Below are positions 7,481-24,736 of a stretch of 24,757 bases of DNA, in pieces (the first letter of the stretch is position 1; the number at the start of each line of letters is the position of its first letter). A program made the position numbers and the translations under genes. The notes under the pieces were generated by a model that saw nothing but the letters and a program-made list of their open reading frames with translations, was not told the DNA's origin and did no database searches. This DNA is from a virus: positions 1 to 24,757 of IMG/VR virus record IMGVR_UViG_3300043449_001317; one strand, 5' to 3'.

Positions 7481-8653
7481 TTAACCAATCAACAATCCGA
7501 CATGACGAGGCGCGATTACCTTAACGCCCCAGGCCAAAGCCACCTCAAAGTGGACTTGTCGGTATTGACTATAACGTGCGACCTGGAAATTTAACCCGGA
7601 AATGGGATCGACGATCTCAGTCACATCGTCAGCCATGTCGCCGCCGTCAGGCATGTACGGGCTGCGAGTAGCTAACACGATGGCTGATTTGCTAAACACC
7701 ATGTTTCTATCTGTAGCTGCAACAGTGGTTATTGTGGTATTGGATGCCGCAATGGCTTGTTGTAAACCGGGTTCTTGCAATACGATTGTTCCGCCATTTG
7801 ATACGTCAGTATCACCGGTTTTAACAATATATTTGTTGGTATCACCGGCGAAAGTGATGATATCTCCGGCTATAATCGTACCAGTACCGGCAGAAGCCAA
7901 TGTGATGGTCGTTGCGCCAATTGCGTACCCGGCGTTATCAGTTGACGCGGATCCGTTGTTTGTGCCCGCTGTTACGTCCTTTTTAACTTGTGCGGAAGTT
8001 CCCAATCCAACGCCGAAAATGTCGCCAATAATGCCGCGTCGCAGCAATTGATCTGTACCGGCTTCGTTGACTTTGAAAAGTACGCTTTGCTTGCCGCGCA
8101 GGTTGGCAATAGCTGAAGTAGAGAGAACTGCGCGCAGATCATTTTGCGGAGCGCCGTTATCTTCCAGAATCTTTACCATCTGAGCCATATCTGACAAATC
8201 GCCAGCTGTGCCAAATGGTTGGGTATTGTAGGTTCCATAAGCGCGTGATGCATAAATATGCAACGCTGCCAAATCAGTTTCAACTTGGTTGACGATACCG
8301 CGCATTGCTTGGGCGAAACGTTGTGTTATGACGTTTTCATAGATGCCTGTTTCGCTCGTGGCGATTTGCTCGTCACCGTTCCAAGCGATAGGAACTTGAT
8401 ATTGGTTGCTGATGGTAACGGTTACGTTACCAGGTGTGACGCCGCCGGTGTCAGGTGCATATGCTCCTGGTGTGATTGATACCGGAGTAGAAGCGCCTAC
8501 AACTGGGACATTTACAGTTTGATTCAGTGCGACGCGGTCAATACGACTGTCCCGCTGTACATTTGGAATGAAGCCGACCATCTCGCGGCTTACGACATCA
8601 GCCGCTGCGTATAACGTGGGGATTAAATTTGTGAGTGTGTTTGTGGCTGCCAT
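7481..8653 (-). CDS. Major capsid (coat) protein, P22 coat-like
   Basis: 390 residues (P22 gp5 is 430). It builds the capsid shell. Seen: an N-terminal arm and start typical of P22-like coats (TNLIPTLYAAADVVSREM, 7-24; FIPNVQRD, 28-35; ALNQTVNVPV, 42-51), an IAWNGDEQIA segment near 89-98, and a long helix (QRFAQAMRGIVNQVETDLAALH). A Thr/Ala/Gly-rich insert (about 230-320, with ATTITLASAGTGTIIAGDIITF) matches the position of the P22 I-domain. The C-terminus (GWGVKVIAPRH-like, here LAWGVKVIAPRHVGLL) is family-like. AAGGA lies 9 bases before the ATG. The gene follows the scaffold after a 171-base gap with structured repeats. Confidence 0.92.
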   Translation of the reverse strand: MAATNTLTNLIPTLYAAADVVSREMVGFIPNVQRDSRIDRVALNQTVNVPVVGASTPVSITPGAYAPDTGGVTPGNVTVTISNQYQVPIAWNGDEQIATSETGIYENVITQRFAQAMRGIVNQVETDLAALHIYASRAYGTYNTQPFGTAGDLSDMAQMVKILEDNGAPQNDLRAVLSTSAIANLRGKQSVLFKVNEAGTDQLLRRGIIGDIFGVGLGTSAQVKKDVTAGTNNGSASTDNAGYAIGATTITLASAGTGTIIAGDIITFAGDTNKYIVKTGDTDVSNGGTIVLQEPGLQQAIAASNTTITTVAATDRNMVFSKSAIVLATRSPYMPDGGDMADDVTEIVDPISGLNFQVARYSQYRQVHFEVALAWGVKVIAPRHVGLLIG

Positions 8654-8697
8654 GATAGCTTATCCTTAAAATAAATGAACGAAAGAAAATTCCTTAA

Positions 8698-8824
8698 GTC
8701 CATCTCGGACAAACTACCCCTTGCCGCAAACTAGCAGCCTTACCTCTTTACAACTTTAAAACGATACTACTTAAACACCCATCTCGGGTAAACTACCTTT
8801 GCCGCAAACTAGCAGCCTTACCTT
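8698..8824 (-). repeat. Two copies of a ~48-base structured element between scaffold and coat genes
   Basis: Copies at 8698-8745 and 8777-8824 are near identical. In the minus-strand RNA each holds a hairpin GCUGC-UAGUUU-GCGGC (5 bp with one U-G pair) and a second hairpin whose stem differs in the two copies while the GAGAU loop is fixed: ACCC/GGGU in one and GUCC/GGAC in the other. The paired changes keep base pairing. The first hairpin only forms fully in the minus-strand sense because the plus strand has a C-A mismatch. This is the direction of the flanking genes. Confidence 0.8.
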
Positions 8825-9595
8825 TTAATCAACGATCTGATACTTTTTAATCGCAGCGGCCTTCTCATGCGCTGATAGCGATTCAAAAGCGGCGCGCTTC
8901 ATTGTTCTGCTGCCGGTTGATCCGTTACCGCTACCATTTGCACCGCCCCCGCTTGAGCTTGCTGGGAACCAGTGAGGCGCGATTTCAACCATGCTTTCAA
9001 TCCATTCGGCCGGTGAAAATGCTGTTTTACCGTCTTTTCCTAGAACTGGCTTTCCGTCAGCGTCTAACTGTACGGCGTTTCCATGTTCATCAAGTATAAA
9101 TATTTCACGAGCTGCGCGTAATACATCACCGGACTTAATCGCGCTGGTATGCACCTTTCCGGTTACCGCTTCCCGGATTCTATCATCTAAAACGCGCTGG
9201 CTATATTGTTTTGAGCGTTGCTCAGCCGCTTGCGCTTTACCGTGCGCTTCGTCCAATTGTTTTTGCAGATCGGCGCGTAGCTTTTCAGTACGCTTATTCA
9301 CCACTTCATCGATCTTGCCTTCCGCCAGTAGCTTCGCTTCCCCGTCCTGGTCAAGCTTTGCCATCATCTCGCGGACTTTTACCGGGTCAATCCCGGCATA
9401 TTTCTCTTCCAATTCTTTAACCGCTTTCCGCCGGTCTGCTGCTTCGCGATTCGCATGTGATAAATCAGAACGCAGTTTATTAACATCCTCGATACCTTCA
9501 ACATCCAGCTTAAATTTGTCACCATCAGCAACGTACAAGCCGCGTTTACCTTCTTCAACCGCATCTAACGAGTCAACAACTATCGGTAACGCCAT
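8825..9595 (-). CDS. Head scaffold protein
   Basis: 256 residues. Scaffolds guide coat assembly and leave or are degraded. Seen: a long charged alpha-helical region (about 35-135, with DLSHANREAADRRKAVKELE and KLRADLQKQLDEAHGKAQAA), strongly coiled-coil-like. Then come a conserved-looking DGKTAFSPAEWIESM segment (about 188-202), a Gly/Ser/Asn-rich linker (214-229), and a basic C-terminal helix (MKRAAFESLSAHEKAAAIKK) that would suit coat binding, as in P22-type scaffolds. It directly precedes the coat gene in transcription order, and a consensus promoter lies before it. The call is based on composition, architecture and context. Confidence 0.83.
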   Translation of the reverse strand: MALPIVVDSLDAVEEGKRGLYVADGDKFKLDVEGIEDVNKLRSDLSHANREAADRRKAVKELEEKYAGIDPVKVREMMAKLDQDGEAKLLAEGKIDEVVNKRTEKLRADLQKQLDEAHGKAQAAEQRSKQYSQRVLDDRIREAVTGKVHTSAIKSGDVLRAAREIFILDEHGNAVQLDADGKPVLGKDGKTAFSPAEWIESMVEIAPHWFPASSSGGGANGSGNGSTGSRTMKRAAFESLSAHEKAAAIKKYQIVD

Positions 9596-9638: not shown

Positions 9639-9667
9639 ATTATACACTATCTGGTGTTCTTTGTCAA
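9639..9667 (-). promoter_or_regulatory. Perfect consensus sigma70 promoter for scaffold/coat genes
   Basis: On the minus strand TTGACA (9667-9662), a 17-base spacer, and TATAAT (9644-9639): exact consensus at both hexamers and at spacing. Transcription would start near 9632, leaving a leader of about 35 bases to the scaffold ATG at 9595, which has AGGTGG upstream. The DNA before the -35 is AT-rich, as in an UP element. It lies between genes, not inside one. Confidence 0.88.
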
Positions 9668-10687: not shown

Positions 10688-10854
10688 ATTACTCCGTTAA
10701 GCATCTTAAACAGCTTGATCGCTCCCAGTGGGATAGGCTGACTGCCAGCTTCCCACCGGCACCATGTGCGCGCCGATACCTCAACCTGTTGCGATGCTTT
10801 CGCAAGCGACAGGCCAAGGGATTTGCGCAGGGATTTTAGTTCGGCTCCGGTCAT
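10684..10854 (-). CDS. Small XRE-type helix-turn-helix protein
   Basis: 56 residues. Seen: an N-terminal helix (ELKSLRKSLGLS), the HTH pair (LSLAKASQQVEVSARTWCRW, 15-34) and the family ending WEAGSQPIPLGAIKLFKML (33-51), a common pattern of small Cro/CI-like phage proteins. Known: XRE proteins bind operator DNA. The ATG overlaps the stop of the repeat-protein gene (ATGA), and its stop overlaps the start of the minor head gene, so it is co-translated with head genes, an unusual site for a regulator. It may tune late transcription or bind DNA during packaging; inference only. The reading frame is complete and codon-dense, which supports a real gene. Confidence 0.75.
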   Translation of the reverse strand: MTGAELKSLRKSLGLSLAKASQQVEVSARTWCRWEAGSQPIPLGAIKLFKMLNGVM

Positions 10855-11759
10855 TCTTTGCACTCAATAAATTTGCCATCTTTGTTCAACTCATACCACG
10901 TATCCGGATTTATTCCATTCTCCCCGACATACGCAACTATGATCCTATACCGTTTTTCAGATTCAACCCATCGAGTTAAAGCAAGAGCGCAATTCGTTCC
11001 ACCTTTTACTCTACTATCTACCCCAACGGAAATAGCAATGCTGTAGTCGCCCGATGCAGCAAGTTTACTTGAGTCGCCCGATGCAGCAAGTTTGCTGTAG
11101 TTTCCCGATGCTACAAGTTTGCTGTAGTAGCCCGATGCAGCAAGTTTACTTGAGTCGCCCGATGCAGCAAGTTGGCTGTAGTTTCCCGATGCAGCAAGTT
11201 TGCTGTAGTTTCCCGATGCTACAAGTTTGCTGTAGTCGCCAGATGCAGCAAGTTGGCTGTAGAAGCCCGATGCAGCAAGTTGGCTGTAGTTTCCCGATGC
11301 TACAAGTTTGCTGTAGTTTCCCGATGCTACAAGTTGGCTTGATTCGCCCGATGCAGCAAGTTGGCTTGAGTCGCCCGATGCAGCAAGTTGGCTTGATTCG
11401 CCCGATGCAGCAAGTTGGCTTGAGTCGCCCGATGGTTCAATATCCGATTTGCAAGCTGCTTTCATGTAATTTATGCAATCAGTGATAAATTCTGGCAGCT
11501 CCAATTCCGCTTTTATTGTAATTTCAGCAGATGCAATTTTGGAGTAGTCTTGATGCGTTGACGTTTCTCCGCCTATCTCAACATATGCAAACCTTGATGT
11601 TATGTCGTAGTACGATAAAACATCCCAAGGATTAGAGCATGAATGAAACCCTGATGAGCAAGCAGATACTGCCCCATTGTGCTTGTATGTCGCGCCAATC
11701 TCAAATTGGTATCCTCTGCACTTTAATTTAGAATCAAAACCTTTGTAATACATTTTCAT
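10851..11759 (-). CDS. Protein with fourteen 9-residue tandem repeats (DUF7666-like N-terminus)
   Basis: 302 residues. The N-terminal ~105 residues (YYKGFDSKLKCRGYQFEIG, FHSCSNPWDVLSYYD) resemble the phage/bacterial DUF7666 type of unknown function. Residues 110-235 are fourteen units of S-G-[DENFY]-[SY]-S-[QK]-L-[AV]-A, followed by a degenerate unit (SGDYSIAISVGVDS) like a YadA-head beta-roll strand. The C-terminus (236-302) has a Trp/Tyr-rich globular segment. The repeat could form a beta-solenoid, by analogy. No signal peptide is seen. The ATG at 11759 has GAAGGGG right against it; the in-frame ATG at 11753 gives better spacing (about 8 bases) and may be the true start. It overlaps the HTH gene by 4 bases. 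The role, perhaps capsid decoration or host surface contact, is unknown. Confidence 0.75.
   Translation of the reverse strand: MKMYYKGFDSKLKCRGYQFEIGATYKHNGAVSACSSGFHSCSNPWDVLSYYDITSRFAYVEIGGETSTHQDYSKIASAEITIKAELELPEFITDCINYMKAACKSDIEPSGDSSQLAASGESSQLAASGDSSQLAASGESSQLVASGNYSKLVASGNYSQLAASGFYSQLAASGDYSKLVASGNYSKLAASGNYSQLAASGDSSKLAASGYYSKLVASGNYSKLAASGDSSKLAASGDYSIAISVGVDSRVKGGTNCALALTRWVESEKRYRIIVAYVGENGINPDTWYELNKDGKFIECKE
11055..11432 (-). repeat. 27-base tandem repeat array inside the repeat-protein gene
   Basis: Fourteen in-frame 27-base units built on a core of GCTGCATCGGG (as read on the minus strand). They differ mainly at codons 3, 4, 6 and 8 of each unit. Every unit is a multiple of three, so copy-number change keeps the frame. 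Confidence 0.92.
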
Positions 11760-20649: not shown

Positions 20650-21582
20650 CTAGAGATCAAATAGTGTCATAGTGCGCCCAGCGGTTGGAACGACCTGATC
20701 AGCCCATCGTTGATTCATAATACCACAGAATAGTACACGAGCGTTGGCGGTGGTGATGAGTGCACGCATATCAATGTTCATCGAGGCAGCAGCGTCGACA
20801 ATTAACTGCTGATGTTGCTCAGGCAAGGTATCGAAATGTTTCCCGCGTTCTTTGCGCTGCGGATTTTGATCAGATATCGCGACAGTTAAGAGTTTCTGCC
20901 CGACGAGAATATCGATACTCCCCATCGCTGCTGAATATAACCATGAAGCAGAATCAACAGACCACCATGGCACTTGCTTTGTCATTATCGCTCCTGTTGC
21001 GGCTAACCCGTGTGAGCGTCCATCCCCCATCAGCTGATGGACTTGATCAGACCATCGCACCCGCAGGTGTTCAGGAAGGTCGTTTCGCGGTGAGACGCCG
21101 ATGTAACGTGTTTGTTGAAGCACTTCGCGCAGGCGCGATTCCGGCTCGCCCTGATGGAATACAGGCAGGACGATATCGCCATACCGCTTATGTAGGATCT
21201 CAAAGTTGATATCGGATTGCCTTGTTGCAGCAGCGATTTCAGCTGGTGTAGGATCGACTCCACGCCGGCCCGGAATAACGTCGAGGTTGATCAGCCATAC
21301 CTTGACGTCCGAACGCGTCATCGTTTCCATCGCACGATCGTAGCAGCGCATGACGTGATCAAGCGAAACTACATCCCCTCGGCTCCAGGCGGTAAATGCG
21401 CCTGAATCAAGCATCCATTCCTCGATCGTACTCTCATGAGATGAGATAATCTTTCCCCATATCAGCGCTTCGCGGATGTAATCGCCATGACAGGAGTTCA
21501 ACCTACGCGTGATATGCGTACCCATGATAGCCTTCTGGTCGACCGTCATAGACGGCGTACCAGAAAAAAACAAGCGTATCAT
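20650..21582 (-). CDS. dpdA: DpdA-like DNA guanine transglycosylase
   Basis: 310 residues, similar to the TGT-fold DpdA proteins of deazaguanine-modified phages, which exchange guanine in DNA for a 7-deazaguanine. Seen: MLDSGAF (57-63) with Asp59 as candidate acid/base, LPVFHQGE (139-146), YIGVSPRN (160-167), HGLAATG (191-197) and SVDSASW (208-214) with Asp210 as candidate nucleophile. The CxCxxC zinc site of tRNA-guanine transglycosylases is absent, as expected for phage DpdA. No strong Shine-Dalgarno is seen; it starts right after the queF stop, so coupling is likely. The last residues (TMTLF, 304-308, then Asp-Leu) resemble a bacterial clamp-binding pentapeptide, and the next gene is a clamp. 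The family call is good; the exact subfamily and the roles of the two Asp residues are inferred. Confidence 0.86.
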   Translation of the reverse strand: MIRLFFSGTPSMTVDQKAIMGTHITRRLNSCHGDYIREALIWGKIISSHESTIEEWMLDSGAFTAWSRGDVVSLDHVMRCYDRAMETMTRSDVKVWLINLDVIPGRRGVDPTPAEIAAATRQSDINFEILHKRYGDIVLPVFHQGEPESRLREVLQQTRYIGVSPRNDLPEHLRVRWSDQVHQLMGDGRSHGLAATGAIMTKQVPWWSVDSASWLYSAAMGSIDILVGQKLLTVAISDQNPQRKERGKHFDTLPEQHQQLIVDAAASMNIDMRALITTANARVLFCGIMNQRWADQVVPTAGRTMTLFDL

Positions 21583-21583
21583 A

Positions 21584-21985
21584 TCAGCGCTTTGTGTATT
21601 CAGCAGTTGGCCAGAAAGGGATGCCCCCGCGTGGTGTGAAGCGTCCTTCTACCTTCAGCCACAGCGGATCGAGCAACTCGATCAAATCTGTAGCAATGCG
21701 GTTGACGCACGACTCATGAAACTCTCCGTGCATCCTAAATGAACCAAGGTACAACTTGTACGACTTTGATTCAACACAGCGTTCGTTCGGCTGGTAGTCG
21801 ACGACGATGGTCGCGAAGTCAGGTTGGCCTGTCTTCGGGCACAGTGAAGTGAACTCAGGAGATACAATGTGAATGTTACACTTCAATCGTGTATCGAAAG
21901 GCGCAGGAAAGTATTCAAGCAAGGTAGAGTCAGGCTTGTCGTAGCTGTAAACGGTTGTGTTGCCGAGATGAGTTAGTTGGTTCAT
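21584..21985 (-). CDS. queF: QueF, NADPH-dependent preQ0 reductase (YkvM type)
   Basis: 133 residues, the short single-domain (B. subtilis YkvM) form. QueF reduces the nitrile of preQ0 to the aminomethyl of preQ1. Seen: catalytic Cys49 in [13 protein letters not shown] with Asp56, the QueF signature [13 protein letters not shown] (72-84), and HGEFHE (86-91) with the conserved His90-Glu91. All catalytic residues are present. AGGAA lies 7 bases before the ATG. It sits between folE and the DNA transglycosylase gene, which argues that preQ1 rather than preQ0 is the base delivered to DNA. It is also of interest because many phage deazaguanine clusters stop at preQ0 or use an amidotransferase for archaeosine. 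Confidence 0.94.
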
Positions 21986-21994
21986 TCGTTGTTC

Positions 21995-22873
21995 CTATTT
22001 GATAAGTGAGAGAAATTCAGCACGTGCTGACGGTTCATCGTGCAACGCGCCACGCATAGCAGAGGTGACCGTGCTCGCGCCCTGCCGCTGGATGCCTCGC
22101 GACTCCATACACATGTGGCGGCATTCAATGACCACTCCTACTCCTAGCGGGTGTAGGTGCTCTTCAAGCGCATCAGCAATCTGGTTCGTTAAGCGTTCTT
22201 GTACTTGAAGGCGCTTCGCGAACATATCGACTAATCGTGATAGTTTCGATAAACCTACGATCTTGCCGTTAGGAATATACGCAACATGTGCTACGCCGAA
22301 GAACGGAGCGAGATGATGCTCGCAGTGACTATATACTGGTATGTCTTTAACCAACACCATTTCATCACACTTCTCAGCGCCGTCCTCAAACACCTTGAGC
22401 AGATCGGAAGCGTTCTCGTTGTATCCTCTGCTGTATTCGCGCCATGCTTTAAGAAACCTCTTCGGCGTCTCAAGCAAGCCGCCGCGTGTTGGGTCTTCAC
22501 CGATGAACTGAAGTAATCGCACCGGAATATCATCCGCGCTCTTTTCATCGCTGCCCTCCCAAGGGAACACTAACCAATCGTCGCTCATGTGCGCTTTATT
22601 AAATAATGCAAAGAATGGGCGCTCAGGATACGCTTCCATATACTGCGCCATGGTTGCGCCGCTATCGATAAGATCATCAATAAAACATGTTGCATTATCC
22701 GGGTTATCTATAATATACATATCCGGTAGAAACCGCTGCACCGCATAAGCGGCAGAAACACCTCCTCGCGGGATAGGATAGACACACGGCGCTCCGCCGA
22801 TATCTGCTCTGATTGCTTCCGCGACGCTTCGAGCTGCTTCGGCAATGTTATCATGCGTAAGTATTCGCATCAT
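21995..22873 (-). CDS. folE: Gpt-like phosphoribosyltransferase fused to GTP cyclohydrolase I (FolE)
   Basis: 292 residues with two domains. Residues about 1-110 resemble a type I phosphoribosyltransferase of the xanthine-guanine (Gpt) kind: PRGG (35-38), the PRPP loop [12 protein letters not shown] (63-74), and W100 followed by PWE (104-106), like the base-binding WxxxPW of Gpt. Residues about 115-292 are GTP cyclohydrolase [16 protein letters not shown] (125-139), the zinc motif SHCEHH with Cys184 and His187, and third ligand Cys255 in [13 protein letters not shown] makes dihydroneopterin triphosphate from GTP, the entry to the deazaguanine pathway. Inference: the PRTase half may salvage guanine or xanthine to feed the GTP pool. 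It overlaps queE by 4 bases, with AGGGG just before the double ATG. The FolE call is firm; the PRTase substrate is unknown. Confidence 0.9.
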
Positions 22874-23586
22874 GGAACCCCTGCTAATTTATGTAGTTGT
22901 AATGAAAGACGATAGCCGTGACGCAGGCATGCTTGAACTGCTTCATGTGTGTTCGCGTTTGTTTCAAGCTGTTTGCCTGGGCCTTCATCGATCGGCTGGA
23001 CATATATAACGCCAGCAGATGCTCTGTATATGTGCACTGTCATGCCTCTCCGTTGGGTACTCTTTTCAGGTAAGCTGTCCGTTGCACTGACTTCACCAGA
23101 ACGAATGAGATATTTCCAGACACGACATCTCGCCGCGATCTGCGGATGTACTTTCGCAGTCTTCGGCGAGCATACGATCTCAACCTCCTGCGGCAAATCA
23201 GGTACCCATACTGTTCCCGCAGTTTCTATCTGTATTGTATATCCATTTGAAATTAGTAGGTTACAAAGCGGAGCAATGTTTTGTCGCATAGGCTCGCCGC
23301 CAGTCAGTACAATCAACCCTGTTTGAATATACCGCTGCACCTCTGCGAGTAACTCTTGTTGACTATATGTAACACAATTTGTCTCAAAGTCAGTATCACA
23401 AAAGTGACAACGGAGATTACATCCTCCTAACCTGATGAATACGGCGACGTGTCCAGCGTGAGGACCTTCTCCTTGAATTGTGTAAAAAACCTCTTTTACA
23501 CGTAAGGCGTCAGGTTGTGATAAGTCCTGCTTATGAATAAGGTTGTTCCCGTACATCATCCCTCCTTTATAAAGGAGGCAGCACAT
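22870..23586 (-). CDS. queE: QueE, 7-carboxy-7-deazaguanine synthase (radical SAM)
   Basis: Up to 238 residues. QueE is a radical SAM enzyme that contracts the ring of 6-carboxytetrahydropterin to 7-carboxy-7-deazaguanine. Seen: [11 protein letters not shown] (35-45), the CxxxCxxC cluster motif with Cys56, Cys60 and Cys63 (CNLRCHFC), TGGEP (95-99), ETAGT (121-125) and CSPK near 138-141, all standard for QueE. Start choice is ambiguous. The ATG at 23586 has AGGAG 8 bases upstream and overlaps the end of queD by 31 bases. The ATGATG at 23559/23556 overlaps the queD stop and has GGAGG 1 and 4 bases upstream. The upstream start has better spacing, but the first ten residues are not family-like. 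It overlaps the next gene by 4 bases. Confidence 0.95.
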
Positions 23587-23981
23587 TTTCGTGTCTCCTC
23601 CATCCGAACACTAATTAATACCGCGCCAGTTCCGCGTAGTCGCTCTGGGCCGACTACTTCGCATAAGTATTGCGCTATATTTTCAGCGGTTGGATTGAAT
23701 GGCACTATAACCACTCCATGCGGATCAACTGCTGAAAGAGACTTTGCCCATGGGTCTTCTTTCCAGATAAGGAATCGATGATCCCACTCATCCTCTAAAA
23801 ACTGGCACAATAATCTTTTTATCACTGAAAAATCGAGCACGCGACCTATCTTGTCTAGTTCAGGCGCTGTGATAGTGAAGTGCGTCCTATAATTATGCCC
23901 GTGCAACATAGCGCACTTGCTTTCGTGCTGATATACTCGATGCCCAGCACTCCAGTCATGAAATCTATCTGCAGTTATCAT
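23556..23981 (-). CDS. queD: QueD, 6-carboxy-5,6,7,8-tetrahydropterin synthase
   Basis: 141 residues. QueD converts dihydroneopterin triphosphate (the FolE product) to 6-carboxytetrahydropterin, the second step toward preQ0. Seen: zinc ligands His14 (SAGHR), His27 and His29 (HGHNY), catalytic Cys23 just before them (KCAMLHGH), Asp50 in VLDF, the Asp67-His68 pair (DEWDH), NPTAEN near residues 116-121, and the acidic EET near the C-terminus. These match the QueD/PTPS fold with all expected catalytic residues. The ATG overlaps the end of queC (ATGA-type), and the stop overlaps a possible internal start of queE, so translation is probably coupled. Length and motifs are normal. A folate-type PTPS is less likely because its neighbours are queC and queE. 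Confidence 0.95.
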   Translation of the reverse strand: MITADRFHDWSAGHRVYQHESKCAMLHGHNYRTHFTITAPELDKIGRVLDFSVIKRLLCQFLEDEWDHRFLIWKEDPWAKSLSAVDPHGVVIVPFNPTAENIAQYLCEVVGPERLRGTGAVLISVRMEETRKCAASFIKEG

Positions 23982-24736
23982 TTTCCCTCCGATGCCATAG
24001 CGGTCATTTGATAGTTTGCAGTGTCAGGTAACAGCATCAAGCCCTCTTTCACAGCACGCATCACCAACGGATCGGGCAACCCTGCTCGCTCAAAACCTTC
24101 GGCGCGTAACACGTTCGCATGATTCATATCAGTCGGAGGATATTCGCCATTGTAGCTGGTGTGACTATACGCAAGTGCCTCCCAGCAACCAGGCAACGTA
24201 TGTGCTAACTTGATCGATTCAGCTTTATTCAAGTACATCAAGGGCGCGAATATCTTGAACTTCTTTTCGCCGAGGGACTGGTTGGCTAGATCTTCAAATA
24301 AAGCACGAAAGATCCCAGTACAATCAGGATAGTTCGCATTGTCCTCTTGGCAGATACCTGTCACTATGTTTTCACAGTCTAATTCAACCGCGCGGTTCAT
24401 CGCGATTGTCAAGAATAACGTGTTTCGCATAGGTACAAATGTTCGCTCAACACGTTTTCCGATTGTTTGTGCCATGCTCACCGCATCACTGTACTGATCT
24501 AGAGGAACGTTTGATAGCAGGGGAGATACTGAGTGCATAAGCCCTTCTATATTTACCACTTCATGCGAAGTTACATGCGCCATTGTAGCTACTCGTCGTG
24601 CTGATTCAATCTCAATACGATGTCGCTGCCCATAATCAAACGTTATAGCATGCACTTCATCGAAATCGCGCTTCGCGAGAAAAAGGCAAGTCGTACTATC
24701 TTGCCCACCAGATAAGATCACTATCGCTTTGTTCAT
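23978..24736 (-). CDS. queC: QueC-like 7-cyano-7-deazaguanine (preQ0) synthase
   Basis: 252 residues, about the usual QueC length. QueC uses ATP and ammonia to turn 7-carboxy-7-deazaguanine into preQ0 in the cytoplasm. Seen: N-terminal PP-loop SGGQDS (9-14), FDYGQRH (33-39), FVPMRN (100-105), NYPDC (135-139), and the C-terminal LRAEGFERAGLPDP block (210-223). Odd: the zinc site of the family (a Cys before YNG, then CxxCxxC before xLR) is gone. The residues at those four places are Ser194, Thr202, Asn205 and Asn208, with spacing kept. AAAGGA lies about 6 bases before the ATG. It is the first gene of the que operon in this window and overlaps queD by 4 bases. The family call is firm; activity without the zinc ligands is inferred only from the intact PP-loop and intact operon. 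Confidence 0.93.
   Translation of the reverse strand: MNKAIVILSGGQDSTTCLFLAKRDFDEVHAITFDYGQRHRIEIESARRVATMAHVTSHEVVNIEGLMHSVSPLLSNVPLDQYSDAVSMAQTIGKRVERTFVPMRNTLFLTIAMNRAVELDCENIVTGICQEDNANYPDCTGIFRALFEDLANQSLGEKKFKIFAPLMYLNKAESIKLAHTLPGCWEALAYSHTSYNGEYPPTDMNHANVLRAEGFERAGLPDPLVMRAVKEGLMLLPDTANYQMTAMASEGK

Follow-up and report, generated by a model that had tools for sequence, protein, structure and literature searches.

In the single-stranded RNA phages, the MS2/R17-type coat operator is a single hairpin whose loop is read by a structural protein; in P22, post-transcriptional feedback acts on scaffold and not on coat; in T7, the structured leader of gene 10, the major capsid gene, raises expression; and put RNA acts on polymerase for terminator read-through. 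The element analysed here, present in a 24,757-base viral contig (the window, that is, the whole stretch of DNA that was analysed), resembles the first three of these in part. With the MS2/R17-type operator it shares phage hairpins before a virion gene region, the reader protein here being a candidate only; it is not homologous to that operator, which belongs to ssRNA phages and has one hairpin. With P22 it shares the coat family and a scaffold-coat system, and the strong control of scaffold and weak control of coat proposed below would match P22 scaffold autoregulation; In P22 itself, in contrast, there is hardly any gap ahead of gene 8 or gene 5, and no such hairpins were seen in the stretch before gene 8. 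With T7 gene 10 it shares a structured major-capsid leader, but the T7 leader lacks repeated fixed-loop hairpins and is not homologous.

CsrA/RsmA/RsmE hairpins (hcnA leader, RsmZ, CsrB) are likewise tandem leader hairpins with a fixed GGA loop motif, variable stems and dimer-suited spacing, and their site consensus is given, in the accessible part of PMC4005645, as A(N)GGAX with GGA in the loop; in contrast, the loops of the element lack the ANGGAX adenine, the window's loop has no GGA, the tested hosts have no CsrA, and the element occurs only in capsid and tail leaders. TwoAYGGAY (RF01731) also has two hairpins with YGGAY-like loops, and some copies of the element's hairpin 1 have GA opposite GA, a tandem GA being reported for TwoAYGGAY in the accessible part of PMC4333381; however, the element is found in different genes and phages, and the RF01731 covariance model gives no match at the gathering score, at E 1 (10 loci) or at E 5 (one leader). 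Rfam 15 at the gathering score gives no match in the window or in any of 16 relatives, and membership of the element in an Rfam family was rejected, relaxed searches included. Titles and opening lines of abstracts in the literature on phage capsid-leader RNAs, P22 scaffold feedback, HK639 and TwoAYGGAY, in which subscription journals were thinly covered, do not describe the element; the accessible part of PMC8040213 mentions phage-linked motifs without a capsid link.

The 171-nt gap before the coat gene of the window contains two copies of a unit of ~50 nt, 79 nt apart on the minus strand, which is the sense of the coat transcript (Table 1), where the first-pass annotation had placed them between scaffold and coat. 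The copies differ, in a 50-nt alignment, by six substitutions and one 1-nt gap. Four of the six substitutions fall in hairpin 2, where they form two double exchanges (G-C to A-U, and U-A to C-G) that keep all four pairs, and in simulation six random substitutions yield such compensation with P ~7e-5. These exchanges, and the occurrence of hairpins of this type in relatives far above chance, bear out the annotation's proposal of a fixed GAGAU loop on compensating stems in the transcript sense. Hairpin 1 gives no covariation signal, because it is identical in the two units. Folding energy is unremarkable for each unit alone (z -0.7 and -0.95), and the minimum-energy fold of 146 nt (z -3.0) pairs the copies with each other instead; folding energy was therefore rejected as evidence, and the case is built on comparison. 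UAGUUU occurs four times in the leader span, in both hairpin 1 loops and immediately 5' of both hairpin 2 stems.

Table 1. Features of the coat leader of the window and of its surroundings.
Feature	Position	Strand	Remark
Major coat protein, P22 coat family	7481..8653	-	PF11651 E 2e-13; phrog_283 E 6e-97
Likely Shine-Dalgarno AAGGA of coat gene	8663..8667	-	~30 nt past hairpin 2 of unit a; read from sequence
Leader span before coat gene	8698-8826	-	Holds units a and b
Unit a, nearer the coat gene	8698..8748	-	Hairpin 1, linker, hairpin 2
Hairpin 2 (P2) of unit a, GUCC-GAGAU-GGAC	8698..8710	-	Conserved loop hairpin; loop class as in relatives
Hairpin 1 (P1) of unit a, GCUGC-UAGUUU-GCGGC	8723..8738	-	Placed like the first hairpin of the tandem element; loop has diverged
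Unit b, transcribed first	8777..8826	-	Hairpin 1, linker, hairpin 2
Hairpin 2 (P2) of unit b, ACCC-GAGAU-GGGU	8777..8789	-	One further outer U-G pair; compensatory to unit a
Hairpin 1 (P1) of unit b	8801..8816	-	Sequence as hairpin 1 of unit a
Head scaffolding protein	8825..9595	-	phrog_206 E 3e-46
Consensus sigma-70 promoter TTGACA-17-TATAAT before scaffold gene	9639..9667	-	Read from sequence

Relatives were collected by coat protein only, giving at least 113 coat loci (24, plus the best 80 of several hundred, plus 9 from GenBank). Seven of the 113 were omitted, five for little upstream DNA or a partial gene match (L019, L020, L025, L080, L082) and two as duplicates (L037, L039); the remaining 106 loci were used with the window, and removal of near-copies gave 82 non-redundant loci. 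Within 250 nt upstream of the coat gene, the 82 loci have 31 hairpins with a GGAU tetraloop (19 loci), compared with 0-2 for each of 11 permuted loops, and 24 hairpins with a GNGAU pentaloop (16 loci), compared with a permuted-loop mean of 1.5, the highest permuted pentaloops (NGGAT, 14; GGNAT, 11) overlapping the GNGAU motif itself. Hairpins of both classes are oriented in the coat leader 57 sense vs. 3 antisense, and a second peak, 750-1250 nt upstream and corresponding to the scaffold leader, is oriented 71 sense vs. 5 antisense. Of 49 tandem pairs (12-40 nt apart), 28 fall in the scaffold region and 20 in the coat leader, and these 48 leave a single pair outside the two leaders; seven near-complete phage genomes have six such pairs, all sense and all confined to the two leaders. 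The stems of scaffold leaders are wholly unlike between phages (gtttcGGATgaaac, gtggcGGATgccac, gctgcGGATgcagc). Counted with no preselection for pairing, GGAT lies inside a hairpin of at least 4 bp at 93 of 322 sense sites in leaders, vs. 54 of 1673 other sense sites and 44 of 1987 antisense sites, and GNGAT does so at 45 of 287, vs. 45 of 2221 and 67 of 2495. For ten control loops, 1-5% of the sites within leaders are in hairpins. G.U exceeds A.C by 35 to 5 in the GGAT stems, and we conclude from this excess that the sense RNA, the transcript, is what is selected.

The results bear on two expectations set out beforehand. Description of the element as a coat-leader element was right in that it is present before coat, but it is not coat-specific: scaffold leaders have it equally often, and in three loci it precedes a major tail gene. 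Relatives that keep the gap and lack the stems, sought as a refutation, are mostly not what was found: where the gap reaches 60 nt or more (45 genomes), coat-leader hairpins are present in 31 and hairpins before scaffold only in 5 more. Nine were scored with neither, among which several have other repeated-loop hairpins and one (L046) has a tandem pair missed by the count. Seven loci (L060, L073, L083, L095, L107, L110, L113) have coat ORFs with a hydrophobic, signal-peptide-like N-terminal extension of ~60 residues, which lies downstream of the hairpins and ahead of the usual coat start.

The closest neighbours of the window on the coat tree (L036, L002, L023, L008, L007) all have GNGAU loops. 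Loci L006, L008 and L007 have GNGAU hairpins before both scaffold and coat; the window has them in the coat leader only, with the unit doubled, and its scaffold leader is without the hairpins. Two traits mark the family: a sense-strand hairpin of 4 bp or more, with GGAU or GNGAU as its loop, in the leader of coat or scaffold, as seen in hairpin 2 of both units of the window; and a second motif-loop hairpin 12-40 nt away, which the window lacks, its motif hairpins lying 79 nt apart. Hairpin 1 of the window is in the right place for a tandem partner, with 27 and 26 nt from loop start to loop start (mostly 19-27 nt in relatives), but its loop is UAGUUU. The GCUGC/GCGGC hairpin, which the annotation described as the other hairpin of each copy, did not hold up as a conserved part: in relatives that position is taken by another hairpin with a G(N)GAU or GGAU loop. 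The UAGUUU hairpin was also rejected as a conserved motif in its own right, its exact 16-mer occurring at one other viral-contig site (L026), in apparently unrelated DNA. Hairpin 1 of the window has thus kept its place and changed its loop. An alignment of pentaloop hairpins (A4) holds 23 of 31 distinct ones, its rows picked as hairpins and its pairing therefore 100% by construction. We read the window copy as one member, itself duplicated, of a family in which at least two short hairpins 19-27 nt apart share a loop and have free stems.

Viral contigs were also scanned, with no protein information, for the pattern GGATGGG-N8-24-GGGCYGGATRGCC. The pattern was found in 116 viral stretches or contigs, 95 of which have a coat gene within 700 nt downstream, 94 of these at 5-83 nt. 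The other 21 comprise 11 before an ORF read as scaffold, 5 at a stretch edge, 2 before a cut-off coat gene, 2 that are chance-like (L135, L223) and 1 before another gene (L128). In the last, a classic tandem element at 1513-1544 precedes a 509-aa ORF, which the search identified as neither coat nor scaffold. Among 119 matches listed for bacterial genomes, at least 15 lie before a coat gene (in Duganella, Janthinobacterium, Aquitalea, Acidovorax, Kaistia, Xanthobacter and Gellertiella among the matches listed), and we take the other listed matches for chance. A second pattern was found in 120 stretches, in 75 before scaffold; where it forms two true hairpins (n = 38), 27 are before scaffold and 11 are not, 8 of these 11 having no ORF in reach.

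Alignment of 60 copies (A2; 51 of 62 pattern representatives and 9 others, with some stem letters fixed by the pattern selection) supports hairpin 1, comprising an outer and an inner stem, and hairpin 2. Seven of 13 pairs are changed on both sides (shuffled mean 3.9), and there are 25 further pair types (shuffled mean 19.6, with none of 500 shuffles reaching 25). The covariation score of the same alignment does not exceed that of the shuffles, 116 of 500 of which score as high, and the outer stem of hairpin 1 is paired in only 74% of cells. A covariance model (R1), run over 100 sources, yields strong matches only in sense and only before coat and/or scaffold; it misses the units of the window. 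Matches to R1 were found in 37 of 38 whole records, mostly as one or two copies. Three records (G040, G026, G027) have an extra strong copy 6-10 kb downstream, directly before a 244-aa protein, and the one such protein searched (L351) is a phrog_158 major tail protein (E 3e-9). Several R1 matches elsewhere, near the 0.01 limit, we take for chance.

Motif hairpins are present in both leaders in 25 genomes, with one class in both for 22 of the 25. An exact loop is common to coat and scaffold leaders in 13 of 48 genomes (permuted mean 6.4; 1 of 2000 as high), and loop sharing outside GGAU and GNGAU is not significant (1 genome vs. a permuted mean of 0.53). Pairs of hairpins with the same loop occur in 19 of 82 leaders (shuffled mean 1.4), the antisense count being 10 on a strand where a hairpin also reads as a hairpin. 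Other repeated loops include AGGA, shared by the two leaders of L015 and identical there with the scaffold Shine-Dalgarno, and GGGAC, shared by the two leaders of L052, both cases picked by eye, and repeated triloops with different stems in L087 and L067. L085 has five CGGGG hairpins with quite different stems ~60-215 nt before coat and none elsewhere in the 7-kb locus.

By sequence comparison, position, sense strand, loop invariance, stem compensation and tandem arrangement are properties of the element. We put at about 0.5 the probability that it is a cis-acting leader RNA family for post-transcriptional control of high-copy virion genes, with a loop read by a trans-acting factor; recognition by a factor is argued for by the fixed loop, the changing stems, the tandem arrangement and the switching of loop class by phage lineage, host identity and phage lineage being inseparable in such comparisons for most metagenomic contigs. 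The targets would be scaffold, coat and, in some phages, the major tail protein, and the factor would read the loops (GGAU; GNGAU in the clade of the window), probably as a dimer. The median distance from the end of the last hairpin to the start codon is 13 nt in scaffold leaders, which puts that hairpin against the Shine-Dalgarno; in 19 of 31 coat leaders the distance is 35-56 nt. A factor bound at the hairpin against the Shine-Dalgarno should block translation of scaffold, as feedback; a coat-leader hairpin, outside the ribosome footprint, would act more weakly, or on mRNA stability. These differing distances suggest that scaffold is strongly controlled and coat less so, and we infer the direction (repression or boosting), the ligand and the effect. 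A translational operator, one of the roles first considered for the leader RNA, is a candidate role and one of the best-supported options. A fixed loop on freely changing stems suggests a switch, not described before, for the amount of shell protein. An upstream reading frame starting from an AUG inside the loops was considered and rejected: loop spacing varies by single bases, hairpin 2 often has GAUAG, and no frame is kept.

The factor would more likely be phage-encoded than host-derived, with scaffold or coat protein as leading candidates. Comparison of the gene content of seven element-bearing phages (from Caulobacter, Klebsiella, Escherichia, Salicola, Rhizobium, an animal-faeces source and the clade of the window; ORFs of at least 40 aa, BLAST E 1e-4, one record minus 695 bases) finds only coat, scaffold and portal common to all seven; therefore the factor, if phage-encoded and universal, is among these or too divergent to see. 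A structure model of the scaffold protein (mean pLDDT 84) has no PDB match at E 0.001, RNA-binding or other. A tentative possibility is that scaffold or coat proteins are sequence-specific RNA-binding autoregulators, each with a lineage-specific loop (GNGAU, GGAU, CGGGG, AGGA, GGGAC), protein and loop co-evolving; if true, scaffold/coat feedback in dsDNA phages would have its RNA operator here.

A booster of translation, or a stabiliser of the mRNA 5' end, could raise abundant virion proteins with no dedicated factor, by shielding from nucleases or by keeping the ribosome site open, much as the T7 gene 10 leader raises expression of its gene. The targets are high-copy proteins (scaffold, coat, and the major tail protein in three loci), and the tail-gene copies fit a scaffold feedback loop poorly and a general high-copy booster better. 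In three coat leaders (L006, L008, L034), hairpin 1 follows the end of a sigma-70-like promoter by 8-15 nt, so that it is there near the 5' end; however, a recognisable promoter lies within 150 nt in only 5 of 42 tandem leaders, and stability needs no fixed loop, yet permuted GGAU loops gave 0-2 hairpins each against 31. We consider this reading rather doubtful. Antitermination or attenuation, in which the RNA would act on polymerase to pass scaffold-coat terminators by analogy with put RNA, is unlikely: many relatives do have terminators in the scaffold-coat gap, some upstream of the hairpins (L060, L077, L102) and some separating them from the coat gene (L056-L058, L096), but the order of hairpin and terminator varies, the gap is free of terminators in the window and in many leaders that carry the element, and the copies go with particular genes and, in scaffold leaders, with the ribosome site. 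The proposal that the hairpins are themselves partial terminators fares poorly, there being no U-run directly after them and real terminators adjoining hairpins in several relatives. Intrinsic terminators are also present in the scaffold-coat gap of L044, L046, L047 and L054, sometimes just before the coat start.

Tandem GGA hairpin loops 19-27 nt apart look like host CsrA/Rsm sites that a CsrA dimer would bridge, and RMfam linked the similar TwoAYGGAY RNA to CsrA (PMC4333381, accessible part). However, the window's GAGAU loop has no GGA, a GGA-to-AGA change being the one used to abolish RsmE binding (PMC4005645, accessible part), and the loop adenine of A(N)GGAX is missing, other clades having GGAU without that A. 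CsrA is absent from all 11 bacterial genomes carrying prophage copies, in a search with positive controls in E. coli, B. subtilis and T. maritima, which refutes CsrA as a general ligand and makes this reading very improbable; a CsrA gene was found in 0 of 22 records, including the 11 bacterial genomes, and in 0 of 9 further phage records (Klebsiella hosts outside the set). Hardly any weight falls on the last alternative, that fixed-core inverted repeats, near promoters in some cases, are double-stranded DNA sites bound by a phage transcription factor, with RNA irrelevant: an asymmetric loop is fixed while the stems vary freely, orientation is nearly always sense (57 vs. 3 in coat leaders), and G.U exceeds A.C by 35 to 5.

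The element offers a concrete RNA target for scaffold/coat balance in tailed phages. The family is widespread and strongly supported, lacks an Rfam entry, and is tied to genes whose ratio decides capsid assembly; the hairpin-loop pair is short, portable and testable in E. coli with HK639-type prophage sequences.

The minus strand of the window encodes terminase, portal (DUF4055), a Mu-F-like head protein, scaffold (phrog_206), coat (PF11651, phrog_283) and more head and tail genes, and the promoter before the scaffold gene (Table 1) is the probable source of the coat transcript. A 7-deazaguanine cassette is present at 20650-24736 (minus strand), with QueC, a PTPS-type QueD, a radical-SAM QueE-like protein and GTP cyclohydrolase I by Pfam; the 310-aa ORF beside it (20650-21582) has no Pfam match and may, we presume from its resemblance, be a DNA transglycosylase. 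At 10851-11759 (minus strand) a DUF7666 protein is followed by many 10-residue repeats of the AASGNYSKLA type.
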